Made by a program: the position numbers and the translations under genes
Shown here: in pieces, positions 36,037 through 64,000 of the stretch
Position numbering within the stretch: the first letter of the stretch is position 1
How the letters are laid out: each line of letters begins with the position of its first letter
The notes under the pieces: model-generated
What the model saw: the letters and a program-made list of their open reading frames with translations, nothing else
Databases searched by the model: none
Told to the model about the DNA's origin: nothing
From: Pisolithus tinctorius
Taxonomy: Eukaryota > Basidiomycota > Agaricomycetes > Boletales > Pisolithaceae
DNA: 64,000 nucleotides
Reading direction: 5' to 3'
Assembly (NCBI GenBank): GCA_024663395.1
Contig: JANFAH010000051.1
Location: forward strand, 310,001-374,000

Positions 36037-36639
36037 AGAGATAGAGTAAAGGCCCCTTGCACTCGTTCTGTTTTCTTTGCTTTTTTGCTCTTCTTGTTCT
36101 ATGTACGTGTGGGATAACCTCGTATAATGGTCTGTGCGCTTATTGTTTCACGTATTTGAGCGATTTGTAGGAGAGTATTCCCCGATTTTTTTTTTTGCTT
36201 TTATACCTGTATCGTTGGAAGGTTTGTTGTCGTGTCAGTAGAGAGTAGTGAAATGCATAACAATTCATACGTATGTACTTTTTCTGTCTGCAGGAGCTGG
36301 TGGGTAGGATGTGCACAAGCAAGTGACTATGTACAGCGGACGTATAGACTCTGTAATGGCAAACTGTCGTGTCCTGCAATATTCTCAAGATTTGCACTCC
36401 CTTGCGAGTGATGATCACTACGTAGCAAAGTCCTAAAGCTTGATTCAAGGCGCGATCGGAGGTTCGCAAGCCTGTAATTTTCCGCTCCTCTCCCACGTGA
36501 CATTGGTTTTCGCAGGCCCAATCGACAGCTCGCCTGTGCATCAGGCTCAAGGCTTCTAACGGACTTCCCTCCTATGCAGTAAGCAGCGGTAAGCTCTACA
36601 AACTAACGCCCTAATACGAGACTTGATAGCAATCCTGCG
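36037..36639. other. 3' flank of DUF6699 B and upstream region of F-box copy 1
   Basis: Its right part (about 36490-36639) is nearly identical to 39070-39223 upstream of F-box copy 2. The left part (about 36040-36280) recurs at about 38800-39010. Confidence 0.6.
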
Positions 36640-38114
36640 ATGGATGAACTCACCGAGGCACGAGCAGCACTGGCTGCGATGGAGAATCGCGAACAAGAAC
36701 TCCTCAGCGAGCTTCACAGCATCCGGGTTGCTGTTCGATCGCAAAGGTCCAGAGTCGAAGAACTCATCACACGATTGCCGATATCTCCTATTGATCGTCT
36801 TCCTGATGAATCACTTTTACGGGTACTCGAGTTTTACCTCGAGGAGGCTGCGCAGACATGCGACGTGTATATCCACGCCAAGCGGCAGTTGGCGAGCGTG
36901 TCATGTCGTTGGAGAGACCTGATTCTGCACTCTCCAAGCCTTTGGACCCTGCTCACGGTGACTCCAAGTTGGAGCGAAGCACGTGCGAAAATTTATATGA
37001 CTAGAAGTTCACGATCTCTCCTCGATATCATTATCAGGTTTTGTAGTTTTCATTATGATGACGGGATTTTCCCTACACTCCTCAATATTCTGTTTTCTTG
37101 CGCTCACCGCTGGCGCAGCCTCACTATCCACGAGGATACCACCGAGTTTCACAGGTTTCTCGTGCTGGAAAAGCTGAATCATTTGTTGTTCCCTTCACTG
37201 AAACGAGTTCGATTTCGAACTACCCTGGCTCATTGAGGAGGCAAGGGGAACTCTATCAGCCTATATTCCTGCATCCCCAAAATTCCCCTCATCTAGAACA
37301 AGTGCATCTTCATGTAAATGTTAGCACATCCGTGGCCGTCCACATCCCTTCTGGTGTCACCGACCTTTCCCTTTTTTTTTATGAATGTATTCACATGCGA
37401 CACCCATCACTTTTCGAGGGTCTTTCTTGCCCGGGACTGACTTCCCTTTGCATTTCTGGCTACGCTTTTGATTTCAACCTACGTCCGAGTAGTATTCAGT
37501 TACCTCTACTCGAGAAATTCGTGTGCACACTTAGTTGTGCGAAGTCACTGATACTTGCTCTTGACGCTCCGCGGCTCAGACATTTTGACTATTCTCCATC
37601 TTCCTGGAACGATTCCCCGAGCACAATTTTTGCAGACCTCCACTCCAAGTTCAATAGCGTCGATTGCCTCCACCTTTCCGGCTCCATTGCACACATTTTA
37701 TCGGAGGCTGTTTGCCTGGCATTTCCAAATGTCTGCGATCTGCAACTCACTCAACTCCATGGCGTCTTGTTGGATTCTTGCCCAACTGACTTTCCGAGCG
37801 ATGCCCTCCACTGGAAGAATCTGAAGAACCTGACTATATACCCACCAGATGACTCTGATTTGGAGTTGCTAGATGGTTTAGTCGCCTGGCTCCTGCAGCG
37901 ACTAAATGCGGGTCAATCGAAATTGCGTGTCACAGTTACTACCTCTGGGTGTGGAATGCCGTCACTGTTTCAGAGACTAATCGAACTCTGTTATCTGGAG
38001 TGGTTGGACACTTGTTATAACGTTTCGGTGATGCGTCGTCAAAGTGGAAGCCAGGCTTGGGTGGTACGTATCCATTCCATTGAGTCGGCGTTCCGCAACG
38101 CTCACATAATGTAG
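36640..38114 (+). CDS. F-box-like protein (tandem copy 1)
   Basis: Starts with a short coiled coil (MDELTEARAALAAMENREQE), then an F-box-like domain (LPISPIDRLPDESLLRVLEF...RQLASVSCRWRDLILHSPSL). A long variable C-terminal region follows with leucine-rich, LRR-like segments (HLEQVHLHVNV, LTSLCISGYAF, FPNVCDLQLTQLHGV, WKNLKNLTIY). F-box proteins recruit substrates to SCF ubiquitin ligases, and this style is hugely expanded in Agaricomycetes. The frame shifts by one base at about 37207-37210. The aligned position in copy 2 (about 39793) has the extra T, so the loss is specific to this copy. About 490 residues after correcting that single base. Confidence 0.75.
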
Positions 38115-39223
38115 GAAGTATTAAATCTGCCTCCTTGTGTCGCCGATGAGCTCAGTACCACTCTTACAATAGCGCACGTTCGAGGCAGGGTCGGAGATTG
38201 TCAGTGTGGGACGGACATAGTCCGTGACTAGGCGACAGGCTCGTGTTTTCATGGTAATGGTTTACATTGATGAGCATTTTGCGTGCGTTGGCAATCTGAA
38301 CGAGTGTTAGCAGTTATCTTGTTGCCGACAGTTCTGCCATGCGCGTCTCGCCCAGGTTTTACCAAAAGGCAATGCAGGCCCCCATAACAAAACATAGTGC
38401 CCCGTTTACGCATGCACGGGCCAACCAACTTCACCATAACTAACATGTCATAGACACACGGCTTGGTAGAGGCCTTACGTGGATCTCTAACCGCTGACAA
38501 GCTGTTTAGGTCTTTCAGGACGTTGTAAATGTTTTCCCTGATTTTTCCATTGAGGAATGTACGCAGTGTTAGCTCGATAGCAATCTTGTTATATTTAGCA
38601 TGGACACAACCAAACTTGATGCACGTGCTGTGCATGCCTGGCCTCTTCCTCCAAAATCACAATATAAAATGCGAGCAATTCAGCCGGTGCCAGGGTCAAG
38701 CGGGACCAACTCCAAAACAATTCCAAAGAATGTCAAAATGAATCCATTGCTGGCATTTGTTAGGGAGTTCACTAGAAGAGTATTTCATACAACCAATAAA
38801 GTAAAGGTCCCTTGCACTCGTTCCGTTTTCTTTGCTTTTCTGCTTTCCCTGTTCTATGTACGTGCTGGGGATAACCTCGTATAATGATCTGTGCGTTTAT
38901 TATTTCACGTATTTGAATGATTCGCAGGAGATGTATTCCGCGATTTTTTGTTTGTATACCAGTATCGTTGGAAAGTCTGTTGTCATGTCAGTAGAGAGTA
39001 GTGAAATACATAACACTTCATCATGCATGTAATTCTCCGCTCTTGCATTTGGCAACCTCGGCTGACCAATCCTCTCTCATGTGACATTGGTTTTCGCAGG
39101 CCCAATCGACAGCTCGCCTGTGCATCAGGCTCAAGGCTTCCAACGGACTTCCCGCCTATGCAGTAAGCAGCGGTAAGCTCTACAAACTAACGCCCTAATA
39201 CGAGACTTGATAGCAATCCTGCG
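38115..39223. other. Spacer between F-box copies 1 and 2
   Basis: Made of sequence that recurs elsewhere in the array. 38120-38600 recurs at 40690-41200. 38800-39010 matches the DUF6699 B 3' flank. 39070-39223 matches the upstream region of copy 1. No intact gene. Confidence 0.6.
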
Positions 39224-40701
39224 ATGGATGAGCTCACCGAGGCACGAGCAGCACTGGCTGCGATGGAGAATCGCGAACGAGAACTCCTCAGTGAGCTTCA
39301 CAGCATCCGGGATGCCGTTCGATTGCAAAGGTCTAGAGTCGAAGAACTCATCACACGATTGCCGATATCTCCTATTGATCGTCTTCCCAACGAGTCACTT
39401 TTACGGGTACTCGAGTTTTACCTCGAGGAGGCTGCCCAGACATGCGACGTGTATATCCACGCCAAGCGGCAGTTGGCGAGCGTGTCACGTCGTTGGAGAG
39501 ACCTGATTCTGCACTCTCCAAGCCTTTGGACCTTGCTCACGGTGACTTCAAGTTGGAGCGAAGCACGTGCGAAAATCTATGTGACTAGAAGTTCACAATC
39601 TCTCGACATCGTTATCAGGTTTTGTGATTATCGTTATGATGATGACAACGTGATTTTCCCTGCACTCCTCGATATTCTGACCTCTTGTGCTCATCGCTGG
39701 CGCAGTCTCATCATCCATAAGCATACCCCCGAGGTTCACAGGTCTCTCGTGCTGGAAAAGCTGAATCGATTATCGTTGCCTTCACTAAAACGAGTTTCAA
39801 TCTCGAACTTCCCTGGCTCATTAGGGAACAAGGGGAACTCTATCAACCTACATTCCTGCGTCCCAAATTTCCCCTCATCTGGAACAAGTGGATCTTCATG
39901 TAGACGTTGAGACATCCGCGGCTGGTCCACATCCCCTTCTGGTGTTTACCGACCTTTCCTTTCGGTTGGGCACCAATCACGTCCAATACTCACCACTTTT
40001 CGAGGGTCTTTCTTGCCTGGGACTGGACTTCCCCTTTCTATTTCTGGCTATGTCGTTAACTTCAGCCTACGCCTGAATAGTATTCAGTTACCTCTACTCG
40101 AGAAATTCGCGTGCACACTCAGCTGTGTGGAACCACTGATACATGCTCTTGTCGCTCCGCGGCTCAGATATTTTGATTATTCTCCATCTTGCTGGACGAT
40201 TCCCCGAGCACAATTTTTGCAGACCTCCACTCCAAGTTCAATAGCGTCGATTACCTCCGCCTTTCTGGCTCCACTACACACAATTTATCAGCGGCTGTTT
40301 GTTTGGCGTTCCCAAATGTCTGCGATCTGGAACTCACTCAATTCGATGACGATTTGCTGGATTCTACCCCAGCCGACTTTCCGAGTGATGCCATCCATTG
40401 GAAGAATCTGAGAAGCCTGGCTATACATGAACTAGATGACTCTGACTCGGAGTTGCTAGATGGTTTACACGCCTGGCTCTTGCAGCGACAAAATGTGGGT
40501 CAATCGAAGTTACTTGTCATGGTCACTACCTATGGGTGTAACATGCCGTCACCGTTTCACAGACTACCTGAAGTCTGTTCTCTGGAGTGGTTTGATTTTT
40601 GTCATAACGCTACCATGATGCGCCGTCGAAGTGGAAGCAAGGCTTGGGTGGTACGTGCTCACTCCACTGAATCGGCCTCACACAAGGCTCACATAATGTA
40701 G
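39224..40701 (+). CDS. F-box-like protein (tandem copy 2)
   Basis: Close paralogue of the gene at 36640-38114. It has the same coiled-coil start and the same F-box-like domain (LPISPIDRLPNESLLRVLEF, RQLASVSRRWRDLILHSPSL), and an alignable C-terminal LRR-like region (FPNVCDLELTQFDDDLLDST, WKNLRSLAIHELDDSDSELL) ending HSTESASHKAHIM. The protein changes frame between about 39830 and 40190 in more than one place. For example, GTCCCAAATTTCCCC at about 39862 is one base shorter than the same stretch in copy 1. It is therefore either a recent pseudogene or a gene damaged by consensus errors. Copy-specific amino acid changes are mostly conservative, which suggests it was functional after duplication. 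Confidence 0.7.
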
Positions 40702-42059
40702 GAAGTATTAAATCTGCCTGCCTGCATTGTCGATGAGCTCAGTACCACTCTCAGAACAGGGAATGTTCGAGGCAGGGTCAGAGATTGTCAGTGTGGGATG
40801 TATCTATAGGCCGTGACTAGGCGACGGCTCGTGTGTTCATGGTAATTGTTTACATTGATGAGCAGTTCGCCCGTGGCGGAAATCTGAATGAGTGTTGGCA
40901 GTTATCTTGTTGCCGACAGCTCTACCATGCGTATCTCGCGCAGGTATTATCAGAGGACAATGCAGGCCCCCCCCCACCAAAATTTACGAGACCACAGTGC
41001 CCTGTTTACACACGCACGAGCCAACCAACTTCACCATAACTAATATGGTGACGCACGACTCGGTAGAGGACTTACGTGGATCTCTGGCCGCTGACGAGCT
41101 GTTTAGGTCATTCAGGACACTGTGATATTTTCCCTGATTTTTCCATTGAGGAATGTACGCAATGTTAATTCGATAGCAGTCTTATTTGCTGTAATTAGCA
41201 TGGATACAACCAAACTTGATGCATGCCTGGCCTCTTCCTCGACCCAGATAGTCGGGCGCGCACGTGATAAGACGATCGGCGAGGCTGAGCTGGCTCGGCA
41301 ACGACATTAGGTTCGGCAGGCTTGCAGTAAGCAAATAACAAAGCAGTGATGGACTCCTGCCACGTTCGAACTGAAGTGCCAGCCAAGGGACCCGCTAACC
41401 CAACAAGAACTGCATGAGCAACAATCGCATGATCAGCAGGTGGCGCGGTGCGGAGACTCTGGGTTGCCTGCCTGCTCTGGTTCAGAAAGGAATTTGACAC
41501 ATTCTGCAGAGGCAGAGTAAAGGCTCCTTGTTCTCTACCTCGTCCTCATTTTCTTTGTTTCTCTTTAGATCTCTGTCCTGTATCATGCTGAGAAAATCTC
41601 CAACAATGGTTTGTGCACTTTTTTTCATTTATTTGAACGATTTCTAGGAGATGCATTTCCTGAACTTTCCTTCGCATATATCTTGGACACTTTCCTATCA
41701 GAAATGATTAATGTCAGCTGGCACATCTGAGTCATGCATCCCTCACTGTTATGAGGACAACTGGGATCAGATTCAGTTCATATGGAAGGACTACGTATAC
41801 TAGGTACAGTGGATTCACAGGCGCTGTGATTGGAGATCCCCCCTGATCTCAAAGTTACACATTTCACTTGCGAGTAATTGTCACCACTGTGATGTTCTGC
41901 AGCTGACCAACCCTTTCCCACGCGATATTGGTTTAACATGTCTCACGAGCACTAGGCTTCCTGGCAGCGCACTTCCCTCCTTGCGACTCAACTGTTCAGT
42001 ATGTAACAGCAAGTTCTAATAATCAGTGCCCTGAGATGTGATTCGATGGCAATTTAGAG
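40702..42059. other. Spacer between F-box copies 2 and 3
   Basis: Repeats the downstream module of copy 1 (about 40702-41210), then a truncated 3' end of the DUF6699 B gene (41247-41520), then a diverged upstream region of copy 3. CpG sites become rarer towards the right. Confidence 0.6.
41247..41520 (+). pseudogene. Truncated copy of the DUF6699 B 3' end
   Basis: Starts abruptly with GACCCAGATAGTCGGGCGCG, aligning to about 35586 in the DUF6699 B gene. It then has the CTGGCTCGGCAACGA and CTGCCACGTTCGAACTGAA segments and the end around CAGAGGCAGAGTAAAGGCTC. Internal parts are deleted and no long frame remains. It shows that the amplified unit included the end of the neighbouring DUF6699 gene. 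Confidence 0.8.
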
Positions 42060-42660
42060 ATGGACAGGCTCACCCAGGCACAAGCAGCCTTGGCCACACT
42101 GGAGAAACACGAACAAGAACTCCTCAGCGAGCTGTGCAGCATTTGGGATGCCGCTTGATTGCAAAGGCCCAAAGTCAAAGAACTCATTACACAAATGCCT
42201 GTGGCACCTGTTAATCGTCTTCCCACTGAGTTACTTCTATGAGCATTCAAGTTTCACCTCGAGGTGGTTGCCTGGACATGTGATGGGCATCACCATGCTA
42301 AATGGGAGTTGGTGAGTGTGTCACATTGTTGGAGAGACACAATTCTGCACTCTCCAAGCCTTTGGACTATGATCAAGGTGACTTCAAGTTGGAGCAAAGC
42401 ACATGTGAAAATATATGTGACTAGAAGTTCACAATCTCTCCTCAACATCATTATCAGCTTTTGTAGCAATGATGATGATGGTGAGATTTTCCCTGCACTC
42501 CTCAATGTCCTGACCTCTTGTGCTCATTGCTGGCATAGTCTCACCATCCATATGGATACAACCAAGCTTCACAGGTCTCTTGTGCTGGAAAAGCTGGATC
42601 ATTTGACATTCCCTTCACTGAAATGAGTTTCAATCCTGAAGTTCCCCAACTCATTAATGG
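42060..42660 (+). pseudogene. F-box-like gene relic (tandem copy 3)
   Basis: Aligns to the first 600 bp or so of copies 1 and 2 but is littered with CpG-to-TpG/CpA changes. One of these turns the CGA of the GTTCGATTG stretch into a TGA stop at 42156-42158. The F-box region is still readable at the DNA level (CTGCACTCTCCAAGCCTTTG is identical). Homology ends near 42660 in unrelated sequence, so the copy was truncated by insertion or deletion. Its downstream module reappears at about 47590-47880. Confidence 0.85.
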
Positions 42661-43080
42661 GGTACATAATGTACCTACTTTGTACTGTACCATATGACCA
42701 AACAAGGTTGACAATCAGCCATGTTGCACAGACTGGCTAAAGTTGAGCCCACCTCTGAGTTGTCATCATGTCACACAGCATAGCCATGATCATTGGATGT
42801 CACCATACTGCACAGTGTGGCTGAGGGGTTACTACTATATACAGTGGCTCAAAAAACTGACTGCATGTTTGTATGTTTTACATTAGTTATGACTAAACAC
42901 AATAACCCCTAACCCTAGCCCTAAACCATGATTGTATGAAATAGGGTACTTACTCTTGGCTTTCTATTGGTCCATGAATCAAGTGATTTGGATGGGAATT
43001 GATAGAATAGCAGCCATTTGAAAATGACATGTCATGCAGTCAGTTTTTTGACTTTAAGTTTTGATTACATAGTTTTGAGT

Positions 43081-43386
43081 TTAAAATGCTGTGAGGTGCT
43101 TACTAATGCTTACATGGTATATCACATGGTCCATTTGATGATTTGTCATCATACAAACAATGCCAAACAATGAATTGGGGCCATCAAGGCTCCCTCTTCT
43201 ACCCCAACTCATGAAACCATCCTCCTGGTCCATCTGGGCCATTTTCTCAGAGTAATCCCCATAACTATTGGTGCCCACTACAGTAATGTCATCAGGGTAT
43301 ATGTCCAACACAATCAAACCCTTAAAAAATCTGCTTTCAGTCACCCCTGTGCTGTTTCCCCCACCCATACCTGATATGTTCTGCAA
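43081..43386 (-). other. 101-codon open frame in the left foldback arm
   Basis: Starts MQNISGMGGGNSTGVTESRF and ends SISKHLTAF. The mirrored frame at 43855-44160 in the other arm differs at only three residues. No transposase motif or known family is recognisable. It may be open only because CpG-free, TG/CA-rich DNA happens to lack stops in this frame. Confidence 0.3.
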
Positions 43387-43854
43387 CTAATCAGTACTGA
43401 GAATGCTGAAAAAGCCATGATGGTTAATCTGGCACTGTAAAACATGACCAACAATCCAATCACCTCTTATCTGGTGGGTTTCCACCTCAGGGGTGCTGGG
43501 TTGAGGGCTAGGGTGAGCTGAAAACCTTCATTACAGTCCAGGTGCCCTGGGGGGGGATAGTCCACTGAACTGCTAGGAAGGAGATTCCATCAATCCATCT
43601 AGGCCTGGGTATTACCTATGGTCTTATATGACCAAATCACCCATTCCCAGTCATCCACAGTCAGCTGAGAGCACAGTCTAGCCATGCTTCCCATGCCACC
43701 TGAAGTGCACAGGAATGTTTTGCCTCACCCCAGCATTGAAACTAGTTGCACTGTGGTGAAAATGTACTGGTTAAAAGGTGTTTTGTTTGTTCATCATCTC
43801 CTGATGTGCCAGATTGACCTCCATGGCATTTCCAGTTGTCTCAGTACTGATTAG

Positions 43855-44160
43855 TTGCAGAACATGTCAGGTATGGGTGGGGGAAACAGCACAGGGGTGA
43901 CTGAAAGCAGATTTTTTAAGGGTTTGATTGTGTTGGACATATACCCTGATGACATTACTGTAGTGGGCACCAATATTTATGGGGATTACTCTGAGAAAAT
44001 GGCCCAGATGGACCAGGAGGATGGTTTCATGAGTTGGGGTAGAAGAGGGAGCCTTGATGGCCCCAATTCATTGTTTGGCATTGTTTGTATGATGACAAAT
44101 CATCAAATAGACCATGTGATATACCATGTAAGCATTAGTAAGCACCTCACAGCATTTTAA
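43855..44160 (+). other. 101-codon open frame in the right foldback arm
   Basis: Mirror image of the frame at 43081-43386, starting MQNMSGMGGGNSTGVTESRF. Conservation of the frame reflects the near-identity of the arms and is not by itself evidence of coding. Confidence 0.3.
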
Positions 44161-45555
44161 ACTCAAAACTATGTAATCAAAACTTAAAGTCAAAAAACTG
44201 ACTGCATGACATGTCATTTTCAAATGGCTGCTATTCTATCAATTCCCATCCAAATCACTTGATTCATGGACCAATAGAAAGCCAAGAGTAAGTACCCTAT
44301 TTCATACAATCATGGTTTAGGGCTAGGGTTAGGGGTTATTGTGTTTAGTCATAACTAATGTAAAACATACAAACATGCAGTCAGTTTTTTGAGCCACTGT
44401 ATCTTCTGTCTCTGGCATCATAACAAGCTGAACAAACAGAAGGCAAGGATCCATGCCCACTCCATGGCTCAAGACTGTACAAAATCTCCTAAGTTCTTTG
44501 AACTCTGACCAACTGTGTCTCTGCAGTCATCCAACTATGATAAACCACAGACTGGTACTTGATACCTCCTATGATTCAAACTGAACCCCCCACCACTCCC
44601 ATATCAAGGCAAATCAGCAATTATAAGCCCTCTGGATATTTCCCATGTAATATTCAGCCTTCATCACCCCTTTCAAGTGGTCCTCGACCCTCATCTCCCC
44701 CTCCTTTGAGCACTCTCCCATCATCACCTGGCAGCCACAAAGATGTTTCTGATGGTACTTTTTCTCCAGAGAGGGCTGCCTTGGATATTGCAGAAATTTC
44801 AAAGATTGTGCACAGAAAGTTTTTACCCTATCCTAGGCCAAACATTGAGCAAGCTTTGGAGCTGTGCTTCACAAGGAATTCTCTGAGAGGTGGAGCTGGA
44901 GTTAATATTGGCCTGAATGATGCTAGAAGAGTACCACTCCTCTATGTGCCCTAACATCATGGAAGGCTAATCCATCACTTCACAGGGAATGCACCTCTTT
45001 CACAATGGTATTAGGCACCTTTCTGATGTGGTGCTAAAAGAGGCAGTCTTGATGAAACATGCAGGTCATGAGACTAGATGTTATTGAGCACTGGCCTCAG
45101 CTTGGGAACTCAAGGAAGCTGAACACTATGGCAGGCTTATGAAGCATATCTACCAAGAAGACCAGAGTATGGTGATTCTTTGGCAGGCAAAGCTGGTGAG
45201 GTGAATCTAGAATGTGCAGTGGAAATGGACAATATCAAAAGTCTCATAGCCTTCAACCATGAGGTGTACTGTACAATGAAGAGGTCATGACCTTGGATAC
45301 CACAGATATGCAACTCAACCAACTATCTGAGGCAGAAATGAGCAGTAGGTGAGTCTCATGCATTATATATATATAGTAACTGACTGCTGGCTGCAGCTCC
45401 ATTGTTTACCTGTTCAAAGCTATTCTCATGTATTTGCTTTTTGAATTGTATTGTTGCACACATTTCATCTGGTTATATCAGTCAACCCTTGTGATTGCCA
45501 CAGCCCACTGAATCTCTCCCCCCCCTACCCTCTCTGCCACCATCCTATGGATCCA

Positions 45556-46040
45556 GGATTTGATGGTGGGGCAAGTAATCTAATACATAGCAAATCCTCA
45601 CTAACACACATTGACTACAGGGGTGTAGTGTGATGGGTGATGGAATGATGTTTGGCCAACCTCTCTTGGGCCCCTCAAGTGACCAAAGTCATTGTTTCCC
45701 CTTCCCCTTCCCTGTCTCTGATCTCCCAACAAACACAGGATTTGATAACTGGGCAAGTAATTGGATATGTATTGAACCCAAACTGACAAACATCAACTAC
45801 AGGACTATAGTGTGATGGGTGATGAGGTTATGATCACCCAATCTCACTCAGGCCCCTCAAGCAGCCAAGGCTATGGATTCCCAATCCTCCTTCCCAATTT
45901 CCCAACTGACACAGGATTTGACAATAGGGCAAGTAATCATATTGTATATGTATTCAAACACTAGCTCACAGACATCAACTACAGGAATGTAATGCAATGG
46001 GCAATGTGATTACAATCAGCCAACAACATCCAAGTCTCTC
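45556..46040 (+). repeat. Degenerate tandem repeat, about 180-bp period, three copies
   Basis: GGATTTGA followed by GGGCAAGTAAT recurs at 45556, 45738 and 45914. Each is followed by CATCAACTACAGG-like and GTGATGGG-like words. Confidence 0.8.
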
Positions 46041-47589
46041 AGGCATGACATAGCTGTGTCTCAACAATCATGCCCTGGCACAATTCCATCAACCTATGCC
46101 CACATCACCTGCTATGCAATCCCAGCCCATCATGGAATTCTGCAAGCTCTGACAGCATACTGAATACCCATGTCACCCTGACCTTCTATTCTCTGGTGAA
46201 CTATCTGTGCCATGTGACACATCCTTAACTATGAATGACTATGTAGCTGCTCACATTCCAATTAGGTTGAGCCACCCTGGAGAGGCTACCAGAGGGGAGG
46301 CATTTGATTGTATTTGTATTGTACCAGATACATGGCAAGCTGCTTGGAAGGCAGCTAAGGCATCATGACCTGTCCATCTACCCCCAGTCCAAGCTCTAAT
46401 GCTAGCCACCAATCCTCCTACCAACATGATGACTGCACCTGTTGCAACCCAAGCTCCCACTGTCAGAAGCAACACAATCCCTGAGTTTGCCATCAAAAAC
46501 ATGAAGGAGGAGGCCTGAAGCTGTATCCACCATTACTTTGTTATGATGCAGCCACTGCTGTCAAGTGCTGATGCAGAGTTCATTGAGCAGCTAGCTGTGG
46601 AGCTCACAGGAAGGTTTCTTGACAACTCAAGTCATAAATTCCTTTCTTTTATTAATGGTTAACAAGTCTAAATTGCATCATATTGCAGGTATCTGGCTTG
46701 AGAGCAAACACAACAAAGATAAATTTTGTGCTGCTGCTAAACACACTCTGAACAAGGTTATGACAACATTCAAGACTGTTGCCTGGATCACAATCAAGGA
46801 TGCTTACAGCCTGAGGATTCCAATCAGTGTGCAACATCCAATCAGCACAGTCTGGTGCCCAGCAATTGACCAGCTCCTTGACAAGTGGACTTTTGCAGAT
46901 GCCACAATCACAGGATACCTCACTCAACCAATTGGAATTCATTGCAGCACTGACCTTGGATATAGCTTCCAACAGGGCAAACATTGTGTGCTGCTTTCCA
47001 CCACCCTGCCATGAGTACAATAATCCACAAGATGATCTACTCTCTCCAAGGGAAGCTATCAAATGCTATCCCACCCAATACAAGAAATATTGATTGTCTT
47101 ATCGCATTCACTGTCACCATCATCCAATGGGCTCTTGTTGCTCTCAAAAGGGGTTGAGAACCAGAGTTTGAGGTGGACATCTATGAACTGCACTACCTTG
47201 ATGCACAGCAGTGCATTCAGACTGTAAGGGGGGATCTGGATCTGTCAACACACTTCAAGAAACTTACTTTAGACATCATTTGGTGTGGACAAGAACCACT
47301 CACACATTATGTTGACCCAGCCTTGTAGAATACAATTTCCTGATTGATGGTGTATTTGAGTTGATAATCTCAACTAAAGGCTGATAATCTCAGATAATTT
47401 CATCAGAACCTTGATAAGACAGCAACCAGACTGCACCAGTGCATGCCATAATACCAGCTACACAAATTTAAGACCTTACCAAACAGAGGCATCCATACAC
47501 TGCTCATCCCCTCAGGTAATTTTGCAGATGTACCTTGTGCCAGCTTTTCCTAAGGCACATACTGAAGGGTGCAAAGACAAAGAGGGGTA

Positions 47590-47880
47590 GCATCAGGTTC
47601 ACCCATGTTCAGACCAACCAAATCAATTCCACCCTAACCAACATGGAGATGCACTGAACTTGACAGAGGCCACACATATGTAAACCTCTGATCAGAACCA
47701 CTGATAACCCATTCAGGGGTGGCAAGTAATAGTAAGTGTGCTCCCTGAGCCTGCCATTGAGAAATGTACACAATGGTAATCCAAACAGTCTTACTCTGAT
47801 CTATCATTGATGCAACCAAACTTGATTTTGCTGTGCATGCAGGTTGCCTCTTCCCAAAAAATTGCAATAGAAAATGCAGG
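47590..47880 (+). pseudogene. Copy of the F-box downstream module inside the CpG-void block
   Basis: Aligns to about 40990-41230: CATTGAGAAATGTACACAAT here against CATTGAGGAATGTACGCAAT there, and AACCAAACTTGAT in both. CpG sites of the older copies appear as TG or CA. Confidence 0.75.
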
Positions 47881-48413
47881 CCCTCTGGCCTGTGTTCTGA
47901 GTTCCAAGTTGTATCAGGAAATGGAATCTATCCCAAAAGTGACTGGTGGGCAAAATTAAAGATCTATCATGGCAGAAACCATGTTCCATGCCTGGACATG
48001 AATTCACCCAATACAATATTGGGAGTGTACCACATCTTTTATGTAAGTACTCAAAGCAAAAAGTCAAATTACTCCACCAGATTTTTTTTTTTCCATTGCA
48101 GTAGAGTGGGCTGAGGAGCTTGCATATGGCATCAGTAAATGCAATGGGAAATAATTGGCTGACTGCATCCTCCGAAGTGCGGGTATACTGAGTAGTATGG
48201 ATACCCTGAAGTAAGCTATATGTAGTGACTGCTGCGCCGCAGAAGAAGTTCGATCACAAGTGCCTCGAGACAGGGGAGGCTTACCGTAATTTGAAGATCA
48301 GCGGAACACCGAATGGATCGCACAGCCACTATACCAAACACAATCAAACACATTTCCAGGCTGCTCTCCAATTTGTAGAGTGTTATTGCGCTAACGCGTG
48401 GAATGTGACGAAC

Positions 48414-50578
48414 ATGACGGCTACAGTCCCATTACTTCTTCCACCAACCTCAATTCCACGTCCCCCGCCTTGGGAACACGAATGGACGCCAAAAAGATAC
48501 CTGACCGGTCCACAACCACCGCCGGTTGACGATGCACGAATACTCGAACAAGAGATGGCTACAGCCCGACAGTTAGCAGATGGAAAGGCTGTTAAGAAAA
48601 CAAGACCCCGTCGGACGGTGGACTACAATGGCGGAATGGGCAGATGGGCTCTGGTAAGTCACAAGAGGTTCAGGTTGGTTTACAGCAATAAATGAAATGT
48701 CGTGTTTCACTGCAGTTGCGAAAACACCGCCCAAATCCGAGCTATGTACCGTGTATGAGACCTGCTCCACCGTACATAATAGATGTAGGGATTGTCTTCA
48801 ACAGTGGTAGCTCCGTGGATACTGAATGGATGATGATATTGTTTAGCTTCTTCCTCCTGTTGCGTATCCAAGTAACTCTTCGACCTCTCTGTGCACCAAG
48901 TTTATCCATACGTCCACAAATAAAATACGTTGTCCAGTCAACGTCGTGACGGTCCGTGTCCGAGGTATTCTGGTTTGACAGACAGCCTGATGATCTGCCT
49001 TTTACAACCCCCTTTCCAGTGGACACCGGAAGGAAGGCGTGTATTGACCGGCTCGACAAGCGGAGAATTCACACTTTGGAATGGCTTGACGTTCAACTTT
49101 GAGACAATTCTGCAAGCCCATGATTCTGCCATTCGCGCATTCCAATTCACGCATTCCGGAGCATATTTGGCGTCGGCCGACCAGAGCGGAATCATAAAAT
49201 ATTTTCAGCCCAACATGAATAACTTGAATGCGTGGCAAGGACACCGTGAAGCCATCCGTGGCCTTAGTTTCAGTCCGAACGATGGACGGTTTGCGACTGC
49301 AAGCGACGACTCTACCATCCGTATATGGTCTTTCGAGGAGAGCAGAGAAGAGCGCGTTCTCACAGGTTCGAAGTTATGTCCTGCATCACAATTTCTGATG
49401 ATGGAACACAAAAACAGGACATGGGTGGGATGTAAAATGTGTCGAGTGGCATCCGACCAAGGGCCTTCTTGTATCGGGAAGCAAAGACAACTTAATAAAG
49501 TTCTGGGATCCTCGCACTGGAACGATACTCTCAACACTGTAGGTTTTTTTGTCGTTCAGTTTAAATTATGCAACTCACATTTTGGTTAGCCATCAGCACA
49601 AGAACACCATTCAGGCCCTTGCATGGTCTCCTAACGGTAATCTCGTTGCCAGCGCGTCTCGTGACCAAACTGTGCGCGTCTTTGATATTCGTGCCATGAA
49701 AGAACTTCGCGTCCTTAAAGGCCATAAAAAAGAAGTGTGCTGTACGTGTAGTTCATTTCCTCGTCAACGCCCTAGTTAATTTCATACATTTCCGGCTACA
49801 TACAGCTGTCACCTTGGCATCCCATCCATCCAATCCTTGTGTCTGGTGGTTCAGAGGGCGCCGTTCTGCACTGGGACCTCTCAGGGCCTGAGCCTTCCTC
49901 CTCAAGCACATCTCCTTTCTCATTCACAACACACGGACCGCGTGCGACACTCTCACAGGCACACGATTCCAACGTGTGGTGTCTCACCTTCCACCCGCTC
50001 GGTCACTATCCTCGTAACGGCCTCCAACGACCACACGACACGATTCTGGTCGAGGGAACGCCCGGGAGACGCCACGTCAGTGTTCTCAGGGTGGAGGTGA
50101 GAAGCCCCCTGAAGTGGTGGATATGAGTGGACAGGAAGAAGACGAAGAGGTCATGGTGCCTGGATTCAGCTATGGTGGCGGCACGGGTGCCAGTGGGCTT
50201 GGGAACGGTTTCGCTGCCGCTGGAGGTAGTGGGACGGCGAAATGGTGGGGCAACGACACAGATGGAGTGGGATATTCGACTACGAATGGTAACCCACCGT
50301 TTGGACCCTCGTCAGATGCCCGTGTGCCGTTTTCGGGTGACGACGGCATGAACTCGGATGATTTTATACCTGGGCTTGGAGCAGCTGAACACCTCAATGT
50401 AGCATCTCCCAGCATACCAAGTCCTACAGGTGCGACGAGGCCAGGTGGGGCATTTCCGACTCAGGAGGATACGTGGTCAGGAGCAGGGGGAAGTGGTCGG
50501 GGTGATGACGGATGGACCGGAAGGAGAGGGGGGTATTACGGAGGACGTGGAGGCCCTCGCAGGGGAGGCAGGCATTAA
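48414..50578 (+). CDS. PFS2: Polyadenylation factor subunit 2 (WD40 protein, WDR33/PFS2)
   Basis: PFS2 is the WD40 subunit of the cleavage and polyadenylation factor that takes part in poly(A)-signal recognition. Family signatures: [46 protein letters not shown] and after an intron [22 protein letters not shown] repeats follow: [76 protein letters not shown] and [15 protein letters not shown]. The C-terminal tail is Gly/Arg-rich ([19 protein letters not shown]). Exons are separated by short introns. The first WD repeats read cleanly. Frame changes occur around 49430, 49840-50020 and near 50090. I chose the ATG at 48414 as the first Met of the conserved Pro-rich start ([20 protein letters not shown]). 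It begins 240 bp after the edge of the CpG-void block. Confidence 0.92.
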
Positions 50579-51044
50579 TGGTAGACAAATGTATCCATAT
50601 CATCGCAGTTTGCGGATGAAATTCGAGCTTGTACTTGCAAATATCCCACAATTTGCAATGGTCGCCCCGAGGGGTTGAAAGCCATGATGATAAAGAACAC
50701 TGGTCCTAGATGTACATCCTGCAAGATGGATAACTAATATCGATACGAGACTAGACATTGAGACCAGAGGAAAGGACGTGTAATAGAAAAAAAAAAATAT
50801 GAAGAGCAAAGAAGTGAGGATGCGGCTCGGTATGCATGCACTATATAACGTGTAGAGTGCGCGAAATCGGGATCATATCATCAGGGTAGACGGGCCCTGA
50901 GAGCATTACGTCCTATGGGAACGCCGGGAGCGGGAGTGGGTGGTTTAGTGTCGGGTAAATGATGACAGGGAAGAAAATGAGGAAAATGAGTCTACTCGGT
51001 CTTCGTCGCCGTGACCAAAATGCAGGGCGACTCAAGAATCTTGC
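50579..51044. other. Intergenic, convergent 3' ends of PFS2 and the CBM21 gene
   Basis: Contains an A9-10 tract near 50788 and no other visible feature. Confidence 0.5.
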
Positions 51045-53369
51045 CTACCCCGCAATGGATGTCATCGACGGGCCAGTTGGAGTCACGGTCCCGCTTGGCT
51101 GGGTAGGGCTAAAGGTCGCCAAGTCCCGGATATGAGGAGAAAACGTATGGCTAGGGGGTGACTGCGAGAGTATATACTGTTCGAAGGTTATCGTAGGGGA
51201 AGTGCGTGGATATATACTGGTCGAGTCTTCGAGTAGCGAGTCTGTCCCGGTATAGAAACAGTACCTATACAAAAAAAAAACATTAGTGTCGACATGAAGG
51301 GATGATGAACAAAAACATACTGGTTAACAAATTGCTTGTAGGCATCATCCGGCGATGCACCTGAGCCATCTTCATGGGTAGTGTCCAGCCCAGCAGATGG
51401 GTCCGTCGGCGAGACCTCGGCAGACCCTGTCTCCTCATCTTCCTGCGTGTCCTGAGAACCCGCATGATCCATGGACAGTGAATTCTCCGCAAACGAATAC
51501 GAATACAGCGGCGGAAGACCTTGGTTCAGCCCATCCAAGGGCCCAGTGTGGGGAGACGAGCCAGCCGGGGTCTTCTTTACAGTCGGGGAACTGGGCATGG
51601 CGTGGTCCACATACCCTCGCGTATGATTCCTTTTACGTCCATCTGGGCGGTGGGGTCGACCAGACAGATTAGTACCAGAAGCCGAATGGCCAGTCTCGGT
51701 GGTATCAGCCACACGAGGTAACGAAGGGGTCTCTTTACACATGACCAGAGGCGACGACGAGGGTGTGCACGGAGGTTGCGCTTCCGAGGAGTCCGAAGAT
51801 TCCTCTTGCTTAGTTTCGTTATCAATCACGCTTCTTTCCATTGGGCTGGGGTTATGGGGAGGGGGGGATCCCGCAGCGGGGTATGTATGGTTTCTTGTAT
51901 GGCGAAGTGTGGGGCGCAACTTCCACTTGGTCGCCGAACCAAAATCGTATCGTTGCGACAGCGACTTTAGCGAGGGTAACGGTGGAGAGGTGGGACTGGC
52001 GCTGAAAGACGCCTGTGTCCGTGAAGCTGACGCAGCACTGGGTGCTGCCTTCGTTCTTGCGACTTCCTCGAGGCGCATTTTTAAGTCCTTCATCGACACG
52101 TCGCTTGCATTACCCGCAACCCCACTGCGCCGGTCAGATAGCGGGACTGGATTAGCAACGAACTTGACATGATAGTTCTGACCCCAGTTGTTATCCCAAA
52201 ACTCTTTACCCCCGGTCACATACCGCAACGCCATAAAAAGGGACTTTTCTTCGATCCGGTTCCATATGTCGTGTAGGCGAATAAAAAATGTGAAGATATC
52301 AAACGCGCCATCTTCAACCGATTTCTCGTAACGCGCGGCCACCTCGCTCGTCGTCTGCCACCAATCCGTTGTGAATCGCGCGGCCAGCCACTTCTCGTAG
52401 GCAATATTGCGGACCCGTACTCTGCCAAGAAGAGTCCGCTGATCTTCCAAAAGGGTAAGCTCTTGCAGCGCCACATCGTCGTTTTTCCTTGGCGTAGGAG
52501 ACATATTACGAATGCTCATCTGAACCTGTTTCTGTGCCTTGGGAGGATCGCCATAGATAAAAGATGGAAAGTCGTCCGTGCCACTAGTATCGCTATTCGG
52601 GCTACCATCCCGCGAAACTGCCAGGGGCTTCTGCTCCGCTAAGAACAGCTTGACGTGTTCTAGTTTAGAGTCGAAGTGCACAGCTTTTGTCGCTGTCGGA
52701 GTCGCTGGTGCACTTTTAGCGGAGGCACCACCTGTCACCACGGAGAGCTGCGGGCGTCGTTTAAGCGACGGCTTCACTAGCTCACCAGATTTTTTGCGTA
52801 TGGTACGAGTTTCTGACGGGGGAATAGAGGGAGGAGTCGCTACAAGTGTGTCCACCTTCACCGGCTCGGAAACGTGACGGGCATGCTTTGGAGCCGGCTC
52901 GTCCAAGGCACACTTCTCTACCCTGATCCGTAAGGATGTGTCATCATCAGACACATCACGTGACGGGCTGTCGGGACCGCTGTCCTTCACCCTGATGCTT
53001 GCCGCCTCCGTAGAAACTTGCGCGCGCGCATGTCGAGAGAGAGAATGTTTCGAGAATGGAATGATAGTGGGATACATTCCATCAGAAGACTGTGGATGAC
53101 GAACTTGAATCTGACTCATAGCAAGGAGGTAACGGGGGATTCGTGGAGGGATTCGTGGAGGGATTCGCGGAGGTCAAAGAGCTAGGTTCTCGCATCCGCG
53201 AAAGGTGCGAATCAGAATAAGAATGGCCATGACCGTTGGGAGAAGACCGCGGTCGACGGGGTATGTGAGGAAGGGGTCGACCTGCTGTGTTAGACGAGAG
53301 TGCGTAGGCGAACCCCTTGGAGGGAAATGGTATAACGGACGTGTCCGTCAAGCAGACTGTTGAACACAT
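51045..53369 (-). CDS. Glycogen-targeting PP1 regulatory subunit with CBM21 domain (Gac1/Pig-like)
   Basis: Brings protein phosphatase 1 to glycogen and glycogen synthase. The long Ser/Pro-rich N-terminal part contains a PP1-docking RVxF-type motif, KAVHF, just before DSKLEHVKLFLAEQKPL. The CBM21 carbohydrate-binding domain follows (LLGRVRVRNIAYEKWLAARF, TTDWWQTTSEVAARYEKS, FFIRLHDIWNRIEEKSLFMA, EFWDNNWGQNYHVKF). A disordered tail then leads through an intron (acceptor near 51274) to a final exon ending TPTGPSMTSIAG. The main exon is open over more than 600 codons. The 5' exon (MCSTVCLTDTSVIPFPSKGF...) is in a different frame from the main part around 53085-53119, through a splice or an indel. 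With it the start is at 53369; without it, at 53119. Confidence 0.8.
53137..53172 (+). repeat. Short tandem repeat, 14-bp unit x about 2.5
   Basis: GGATTCGTGGAGGG repeated with one change. It encodes the PSTNPSTNP repeat in the N-terminal part of the CBM21 protein. Confidence 0.8.
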
Positions 53370-61390: not shown

Positions 61391-62153
61391 TTGCCTCGTC
61401 TATCATATATGTGACTTACGGTAATGTGCCAGCCATATCTATGTGGGTCACGTCGCCCATTTCTACGGTTGTTCCCAATCGATTTCCGATAAAGGTGCGT
61501 TGCCAATTTGTCCTTAATGGATTTGCATACCACGCTGTTGTGGGAAGTTCCATGGTACCTTCCAAAAGGAAGAACACTCATGCCAGGGGGTTCGGCCCTA
61601 TGAGTTACTATTACTCCTGTCTCAACGGACCAGGATTTTCTGTCGAAGTGATGTTGTTCTTGTGATAACATGTGAATGTGATAGCAGAGGATATCAATGC
61701 AATTAGCAGGGTAAAATGATGATTGGAAAATATGGGGGGGTGAACTAATATGTGGCATTGCTAGCAGCAGGTATACACACATCAAAATACAATTTAAGAC
61801 ACCATTCATTCAATGGAAGGGAAACATTTGCACCACTCCTTGCCATGGACCATCTGACTCAAGTCCAACTCTGTGCAACAACCTCTGGGAATGACTGCTA
61901 TGGTCCACATTGAGTAAAATGGACTCCTAAGTCTTAGGGGGATCCAAAGTAGTAGTTGTCCCTTTGGGCCTCTGATCCAGCCATCATCATGTAACTTGAC
62001 TGCTTGGCCCAGCACAGCCTCCTGGTGCATGGACCCATCAAAAGTGGACTGCTGTTATGTAGTGCATGTGAGGGGTCAAATGAAAAGCAAATGGGATATC
62101 TCTTGACATCTACACTTCTTATTAAGTGAAATAAGGATAGATAAAAGGTGGAG

Positions 62154-64000
62154 TTACATACCATGTGCAGGAGGGGATGGATGAAGCATGCTAGAGGGGT
62201 GGGATGCAACCAGTGTCAATTTTTCATTCTCCCAGACCCTGACAGCCTTGTCCCATGAGCCTGAGACAATCCTCTTTCCATCAGGGGAGAATGCAACTGA
62301 AGTGACATAAAAAGTATGGCCCTCAAGAGGGCTGCCAATCTGTACACCTCCCTCAACATCCCACACCCTCACAGTCTTGGTCTGCTGAGCCTGGAGACAA
62401 TCATCTTCCCATCAGGGAGAATGCCACTGATTTGACTGTATCTGTATGGCCCTTAAGATAGCTGCAATCTGCACACCTCCCTCAACATCCCACCACCCTC
62501 ACAGTGTTTGTCCCATGAGCCTGAGACAATCCTCTTCCCATCAGCAGAGAATGCAACTGAACTGACTTCTTCTATATGACCCACAGAGGGCTACCAATCT
62601 GTACACCTCCCTCAACATCCCACACCCTCCACAGTCTTGTCTGCTGAGCCTGAGACAATCATCTTCCCATCAGGGGAGAATGCCACTGATTTGACTGTAT
62701 CTGTATGGCCCTTAAGATAGCTGCCAATCTGCACACCTCCCTCAACATCCCACACCCTCACAGTGTTGTCCCAATGAGCCCTGAGACAATCCTCTTCCCA
62801 TCAGCAGAGAATGCAACTGAACTGACTTCTTCTATATGACCCACAAGAGGGCTACCAATCTGTACACCTCCCTCAACATCCCAACACCCTCACAGTCTTG
62901 TCCAAAGAGCCTGAGACAATCCTCTTCCCATCAGGGGAGAATGTGGCTGAAGTGATTGCATCTGTATGGCCCTCAAGAGGGCTGCCAATCTGCACACCTC
63001 CCTCAACATCCCACACCCTCACAGTCTTGTCCAAAGAGCCTGAGGCAATCCTCTTCCCATCAGAGGAGAATGCTACTGAAAAGACTGCATCTGTATGGCC
63101 CTCAAGAGGGCTGCCAATCTGCACACCTCCCTCAACATCCCAGACCCTCACAGTCTTGTCCCATGAGCCTGAGACAATCCTCTTCCCATCAGGGGAGAAT
63201 GCAACTGAATTGACACAAAAAGTATGACCCTCAAGAGGGCTGCCAATCTGCACACCTCCCTCAACATCCCAGACCCTCACAGTGTTGTCCCTTGAGCCTG
63301 AGACAATCCTCTTTCCATCAGGGGAGAATGCAACTGAAGTGACTTCATCTGTATGGCCCTCAAGAGGGCTGCCAATCTGCACACCTCCCTCAACATCCCA
63401 CACCCTCACAGTCTTGTCCCATGAGCCTGAGACAATCCTCTTCCCATCAGGGGAGAATGCAACTGATTGGACCCAGAAGTATGCCCCTTAAGAGGGTTGC
63501 CAATCTGCACACCTCCCTCAACATCCCAGACCCTCACAGTGTTGTCCCCTGAGCCTGAGACAACCCTCTTCCCATCAGGGGAGAATGCAACTGAAGTGAC
63601 ATAAAAAGTATGGCCCTCAAGAGGGCTGCCAATCTGCACACCTCCCTCAACAACCCACACCCTCATAGTGCTGTCCTTTGAACCTGAGACAATCCTCTTC
63701 CCATCAGGGGAGAATGCAACTGAAGTGACACCATCTGTATGGCACCCAAGAGGACTGCCAATCTGCACACCTCCCTCAACATCCCACACCCTCACAGTCT
63801 TGTCCAAAGAGCCTGAGACAATCCTCTTCCCATCAGGGGAGAATGCAACTGATCGGACTACATCTGTATGGCCCTCAAGAGGGCTGCCAATCTGTACACC
63901 TCCCTCAACATCCCAGACCCTCACAGTGTTGTCCCTTGAGCCTGAGACAATCCTCTTCCCATCAGGGGAGAATGCAACTGAAAGGACATCATCTGTATGG
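62154..64000 (-). CDS. Tandem WD40-repeat protein, 3' part (NLR-type sensor array)
   Basis: Runs off the right edge, so only the C-terminal part is visible. About 13 near-identical WD40 units of 43 residues (129 bp) follow the pattern [43 protein letters not shown]. Variation is focused at a few positions: DEVT, FCVN, DAVF, DVVR, DGVT and FYVT after GHT, and R, W, L, K or G after SGS. Such homogenised arrays with hypervariable surface sites form the ligand-sensing end of fungal NACHT-WD40 proteins such as HET-D and HET-E of Podospora. The N-terminal domains lie outside the window, so the NLR identity is inference. Units at 62373-62870 are broken by single-base indels; the rest are open. The stop at 62154 follows [11 protein letters not shown], which may be replaced by a further exon. 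Confidence 0.85.
62385..62870. repeat. Two-unit WD40 duplication differing only by indels
   Basis: Two copies of about 248 bp, from about 62385 and about 62632. Aligned by eye they show around eight one- or two-base length differences (TTGGTC/TTGTC, CCTGGAG/CCTGAG, CAGGGAG/CAGGGGAG, GTGTTTG/GTGTTG and others) and no substitution. Confidence 0.85.

Follow-up and report, generated by a model that had tools for sequence, protein, structure and literature searches.

The repeat-induced point mutation (RIP) of Pezizomycotina turns C into T in repeated DNA, mainly at CpA and with TpA raised. A CpG-biased, RIP-like hypermutation has been reported from Tricholoma matsutake (PMC6980582), and CpG-biased hypermutation of genes and repeats alike from Rhizoctonia solani AG8 (PMC4014442); Pucciniomycotina are credited with hypermutation at TpCpG (Horns et al. 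2012, as cited in PMC12730594), and Zymoseptoria with a Dim2-dependent mitotic mutator that is linked to a methyltransferase and targets CA (PMC8016269). CG methylation in Basidiomycota is ascribed to DNMT1-RFD together with DNMT5, in a source that also puts the human CpG deficit at roughly five-fold (PMC13297926). The literature is divided on a RIP-like process in Agaricomycotina: against the report from T. matsutake stand a 2025 paper which states that hypermutation was not detected in this group (PMC12730594) and a 2025 survey of 1,239 fungi which regards RIP-like enrichment as a feature of ascomycetes alone (PMC12543289). The ten repeat-annotated genomes of Amselem 2015 (PMC4352252) include no Agaricomycete. 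Here we analyzed a 5.9-kb block almost devoid of CpG (42262-48172) in the mushroom-forming Boletales fungus Pisolithus tinctorius; positions refer to the window, the whole stretch of 64,000 nucleotides (C51:310001-374000, where C51 is our label for contig JANFAH010000051.1), and searches covered the whole assembly (92.5 Mb, 221 contigs). A phosphatase-regulator-like protein encoded in the window has 72% identity to its counterpart in Pisolithus sp. B1, followed among the named hits by Astraeus and further Boletales, and another database entry matches it at 94%; this places the host in the Boletales, close to Pisolithus.

The block shares C-to-T change at CpG with T. matsutake and R. solani AG8, seen as a shift from CpG to TpG/CpA in repeats, and differs from what is described there in that the loss is nearly total, one edge is abrupt and the event can be dated by the other haplotype; unlike in R. 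solani AG8, the gene flank beside it was spared. C-to-T change in repeated DNA is also common to Pezizomycotina RIP, from which the block is set apart by its target (CpG, not CpA) and by the lack of tract clustering; a RID-like gene was not recognized in an exon-wise search of low sensitivity. A high rate of C-to-T change in repeats recalls the Zymoseptoria mutator, with CG in place of CA as the target. The CG methylation described for Basidiomycota also affects repeats, and a similar enzyme pair seems to be encoded here; the CpG deficit of the block goes far beyond the five-fold one cited for humans.

Composition of the block and timing of the loss

Two CpG sites (at 44685 and 47103) are found in the 5,911 bp of the block, where 278 are predicted from base composition (Poisson P ~6e-117), with observed/expected ratios (o/e) of 0.007 for CpG, 0.97 for GpC, 1.66 for TpG and 1.49 for CpA. 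The preliminary description, which had reported a near-CpG-free block with a sharp right edge, common GpC and abundant TpG and CpA, is thus borne out, and both checks that it had proposed came out in its favor: GpC is not depleted in the block, and CpG o/e is 0.95 in the window outside this void and a second one near its end. TpA is not raised (0.65 in the block vs. 0.75 outside both voids), contrary to the Pezizomycotina-type signature. At the right edge CpG returns at 48173, 48180 and 48235 onward (46 sites in 48001-49000), and the 100-bp o/e jumps from 0.00 to 0.99, which is as sharp as CpG spacing permits; the left edge is softer, with 200-bp values from 41262 of 0.92, 0.24, 0.31, 0.66 and 0.40, and zero from 42262 on.

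Both haplotypes seem to be assembled, as the block and the side of its neighboring gene, PFS2, can be aligned to C5:2948000-2957900, and one CpG-normal stretch searched in the genome occurs exactly twice, as its two haplotype copies. Over 2,144 sites of the block (45842-47986) no CG is common to both haplotypes, which are distinguished by 46 doublets that read TG in one and CA in the other, by 11 transversions and by 24 other transitions, one of them between CG and TG. The flank (48200-51500, 3,295 sites) has 181 shared CG, 17 CG changes, no TG/CA swap, 19 transversions and 38 other transitions. Divergence is otherwise alike (transversions 0.5 vs. 0.6%, non-CpG transitions 1.1 vs. 1.2%), so that, CpG apart, substitutions are about as frequent in the block as in the flank. 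The whole allele alignment holds 51 TG/CA swaps, compared with 2, 1, 1 and 0 for four control doublet pairs, and a duplicate copy on C58 has 47 swaps and 7 transversions in 1,658 sites. CpG went to TpG or CpA in a strand-random way, site by site, independently on both haplotypes and the duplicate copy.

A swap between haplotypes points to an ancestral CG. Doubling the 46 swaps to include concordant losses gives an estimate of 92 CpG (66-120) at the haplotype split, against 114 expected at an o/e of 0.9, and therefore most CpG would have been present at the split and since lost on both sides; on this reckoning, most of the loss in the tested part (45.8-48.0 kb) is later than the split. Since it was completed within about 0.5% transversion divergence, the rate per CpG cytosine comes out roughly 100-fold above that of other transitions, or, with 1.5 survivors assumed (one to two per lineage), at ~163 times that of non-CpG transitions at C:G and ~96 times that of flank CpG, figures that are estimates and not bounds. 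We consider it probable that methylated CpG in this largely repeat-derived block mutate to T about 100-fold faster than is normal for transitions, with nearly none left in the end.

Methylated CpG that decayed slowly, over long periods and in the manner of vertebrates, would produce the same type of substitution at independent sites. We regard this as improbable, given near-complete loss on both haplotypes at a rate roughly 100-fold or more above other transitions within so little divergence. The same disfavor comes from seven stretches selected as voids (two of them in part haplotypes of each other), which together hold 13 CG vs. 4,587 TG+CA (0.3%). What stands of the process proposed in the preliminary description is a CpG-restricted, repeat-associated C-to-T change that would be compatible with methylation and deamination; where 45.8-48.0 kb is concerned, its words "long time" mislead. 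Some long-read base callers make context errors of the kind that would turn methylated CpG into TG or CA, and a sequencing artefact was weighed for this reason; 32 of the 51 sites with opposite outcomes in the two haplotypes share six-base flanks on both sides, an error could therefore not be fixed by that context, and such an origin is hardly credible. Beyond the flank, at 51500-52311, the haplotypes are near-identical (1 difference in ~800 bp), which points to recent recombination between them or to common descent of this part.

Edges of the void and neighboring features

The preliminary description had offered either a methylation limit or a recombination junction as the cause of the abrupt edge, and it had placed an F-box copy, a foldback element and a tandem repeat inside the affected DNA, all of which are present (Table 1). 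That the edges are junctions of inserted CpG-free DNA is refuted for the two outer edges in the window: the F-box copies align without a break across 42262, the other haplotype likewise across 48173, and the haplotypes do not regain CpG at the same base (in the other one at the equivalents of ~47987 and ~48112, ~185 bp before 48173). Points on the side of a junction are the foldback, which seems to have been nearly CpG-free before insertion, and the left end of the void in the other haplotype, which is ~125 bp away, on the inner side, from a real break in the sequence (2064 vs. 2187 in reversed L009), so that junction and edge nearly coincide there; to the left of 44454 the two haplotypes have entirely different sequence, that of the other haplotype being CpG-rich and without the foldback. 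As a general account of the void edges, insertion of CpG-free DNA is very improbable, and a methylation limit would be the likelier cause.

Conversion is directly visible in F-box copy 3, whose CpG-bearing relatives lie only 2-5 kb away. Right of 42262, 31 sites are CG in a paralogue, and copy 3 has TG at 14, CA at 12, CG at none and another doublet at 5; left of it, 23 such sites read CG in 5 cases, TG or CA in 15 and otherwise in 3.

Table 1 Features of the window discussed in the text
Feature	Position	Strand	Remarks
F-box copy 1	36577..37209	+	CpG-bearing control
F-box copy 2	39161..39823	+	CpG-bearing control
Softer left transition zone	41462..42261		200-bp CpG o/e 0.24-0.66
Degenerate F-box copy 3	41997..42656	+	77-78% identity to copies at 36577 and 39161; left edge of void inside
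CpG void	42262..48172		2 CpG / 5,911 bp
Foldback element	42839..44402		Arms 42839-43551 and 43690-44402 (713 nt, 92% complementary)
Repeat-related segment	44454..45324		94% to other haplotype, 67-72% to 14 more loci
Imperfect 182-bp tandem repeat, three copies	45520..46045
Duplicated segment	45639..47532		Found again on C5 (other haplotype) and at another locus on C58 (93%)
CpG-free stretch	47533..48172		Other haplotype is sole strong homology
CpG-normal flank with PFS2/WDR33-like gene	48173..49589	+
Second CpG void	61644..63854	-	Over 129-bp WD40-like tandem array (62230-64000)

The CpG-poor zone overruns the last strong repeat homology by about 0.6 kb on both sides: on the left the void begins inside the weakly homologous F-box copy and the foldback only at 42839, and on the right strong homology to C58 stops ~640 bp before the void does. 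Further matches of this last stretch are short or weak (at most 155 bp at 71-77%), and it apparently represents a spread of CpG loss past strong repeat homology. A 136-aa open stretch within the repeat-related segment had no Pfam match. The exon at 48990-49589 matches chains of WDR33 and of Polyadenylation factor subunit 2 among structure entries; with the start codon of the PFS2-like gene read by us at 48414, the right end of the void lies ~240 bp upstream of it, and the edge would mark the end of methylation at an active promoter.

Manner of loss and candidate enzymes

One repeat family was caught in the course of decay, with 66, 64, 35, 33, 24, 7 and 0% of CpG retained in seven copies whose non-CpG transversion difference is below 1% in 18 of the 21 copy pairs. 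Runs tests (kept/lost in five copies, TG/CA in seven) found no clustering, the lowest P being 0.105, and copy L010 alternates slightly beyond chance (P of fewer runs 0.990); the 51 swaps between haplotypes form 25 runs where 26.5 are expected. Processive, strand-wise mutation was rejected, as neither data set carries a runs signal. With Pucciniomycotina hypermutation the family has the CpG core in common and not the reported TpCpG context: the base before the mutated C was T in 64 cases (77.5 expected), A in 156 (121.5), C in 44 (62.5) and G in 64 (66.5), which dismisses a TpCpG preference in favor of a modest excess of ApCpG (copy L025, which overlaps the alignment in part, was excluded from this count and kept in the others). 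Voids are common in the genome: when 20 stretches of 2.5 kb, placed at round coordinates of 12 contigs, were divided into 200 windows of 250 bp, 45 windows had a CpG o/e below 0.1 and many others were intermediate; a genome search with one void stretch gave 334 matches.

A PF00145 profile search found three places in the genome. On C6 a DNA_methylase domain is accompanied by an SNF2 domain in an adjacent open stretch (L052; DNMT5-like), and on C3 by BAH (L053; DNMT1-like), each pair presumably belonging to a single gene; the match on C59 scores the same as that on C3 and is probably its haplotype. The genome thus appears to encode CpG maintenance methyltransferases. Among these three matches, which look like two genes, no RID/Masc1-type enzyme was recognized in an exon-wise search that is insensitive. 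The Pfam UDG profile had no match, and exon fragments of the ung family were found at three places; the zero therefore reflects the insensitivity of the search and lends no weight to a missing uracil/thymine glycosylase as the cause of the high rate. TET/JBP dioxygenases gave 150 domain matches (150 of 186 candidates scored), 52 rows of which contain TGA stops, and 18 rows of one subfamily are identical in score, which suggests recent spread. By hand count the stops in these rows are 61 TGA, 8 TAG and 1 TAA, compared with 46, 21 and 27 in a kinase control (145 matches, many of them across introns), both lists including near-identical copies and haplotype pairs. CpG o/e is 0.23 in one 1-kb TET/JBP piece, and these enzymes could possibly speed CpG loss or affect the fate of 5-methylcytosine. 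Stops of KDZ transposases were left uncounted, since a TAG+TAA pair that recurs in one subfamily is seemingly intronic.

According to the mechanism that we propose, DNMT1-BAH-like and DNMT5-like enzymes would lay 5-methylcytosine on repeats, and these bases would deaminate to T and be poorly repaired. A RIP-like premeiotic mutator that hits CpG in duplicated DNA in each sexual cycle would also explain fast loss in repeats and short flanks, and the report from T. matsutake lends it a precedent; partial loss could, moreover, come from several rounds of a light process of this kind. We think it unlikely, though a serious competitor, as the copies tested show no tract or strand clustering and stand at several stages of partial loss, as neither of the two apparent methyltransferase genes from the insensitive exon-wise search looks RID-like, and as CpG was kept in a 2.2-kb tandem duplication of the F-box region (36486-41240, 85.5% identity), so that being duplicated at such identity is not by itself enough for erasure. 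Scattered, strand-random, partial losses seem to fit single-site deamination of 5-methylcytosine better than tract-wise RIP.

Besides the possibility of repeated light rounds, several points weigh against deamination of methylated CpG as we propose it. The repeat family has ~330 non-CpG transitions vs. ~70 transversions in 15 copy pairs, a higher ratio than the two haplotypes show, and CpG may accordingly not be the sole target throughout; the copies of this family are, moreover, related to each other, and its CpG columns had to be inferred. The rate is based on few transversions and a single haplotype pair, repeat status was checked besides the block in two stretches only (one void, one not), and no de novo targeting enzyme was identified among the matches.

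Foldback element, WD40-like array and what they may mean

The foldback is a separate case. Its ends (ACAGTGGCTCAAAAAACTGACTGCATG) adjoin TA and may resemble those of Tc1/mariner-pogo elements; they match the genome 207 times (102 + 105) at up to 2 mismatches, with none for the control, which corresponds to ~100 copies over both haplotypes if each has two ends. Sixteen copies of at least 36 found (two of which, L026 and L027, sit in 99.8% identical surroundings) differ by 1.1% transversions and 3.8 TG/CA swaps per pair on average (median 3, maximum 11; 120 pairs), where decay of a normal CpG load after insertion should, by our estimate, have left ~30-40 swaps. The swaps nevertheless exceed the controls (460 vs. 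1, 3 and 18 in all) and arise from 21 columns, the plainest being six positions mirrored across both arms, at which the founder evidently kept CpG. The two arms within one copy differ by 20-42 transversions and only 2-4 swaps. A 71%-identical sister has 12 swaps vs. 5-8 control doublets, and a minor share of CpG was therefore possibly lost after that split. Taken together, the foldback seems to have been nearly CpG-free before its amplification, and its CpG loss would not have taken place in the block. One copy (L018, 3765-5346), whose surroundings carry a moderate number of CpG, has retained four CpG that are absent from most other aligned copies and may be a younger insertion.

The second void continues past the window to C51:374830 with one CpG in between (none in 61645-63853), and the WD40-like array under it likewise extends beyond the end of the window. 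The WD40 identity of its 129-bp unit was read by eye on the minus strand; the array has variable codons, and indels in the leftmost units. Seven units with exact 129-bp spacing, taken from 14 matches of the unit motif, show 132 transversions and 0.74 TG/CA swaps per kb over 21 pairs, and the units would accordingly have been nearly CpG-free from the start. The Podospora repertoire paper (PMC1805685) may offer a comparison for this array.

It is possible that the foldback escapes defense because it offers few sites for methylation; alternatively, an old and decayed copy may have been its ancestor, and its spread may have other causes. A literature search on escape by CpG-free transposons gave nothing on point by title and abstract among 15 of 271 entries, which is not proof of absence. 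A wider proposal, which we put forward tentatively and hold to be somewhat less probable than its opposite, is that CpG-directed methylation acts as a near-saturating (~100-fold) repeat mutator and that two sequences multiplied by escaping it: the foldback, nearly CpG-free before its arms diverged from each other and in large part before its 71%-identical sister split off, and the WD40-like array, expanded from units with almost no CpG.

An assembly of both haplotypes makes the rate, the strand pattern and the edges of the loss readable from sequence alone. If the wider proposal is true, CpG-free mobile DNA would go unseen by the defense, in mutational as well as epigenetic terms, and if CpG-free transposons do escape in this way, they would provide a natural test of what that defense recognizes.

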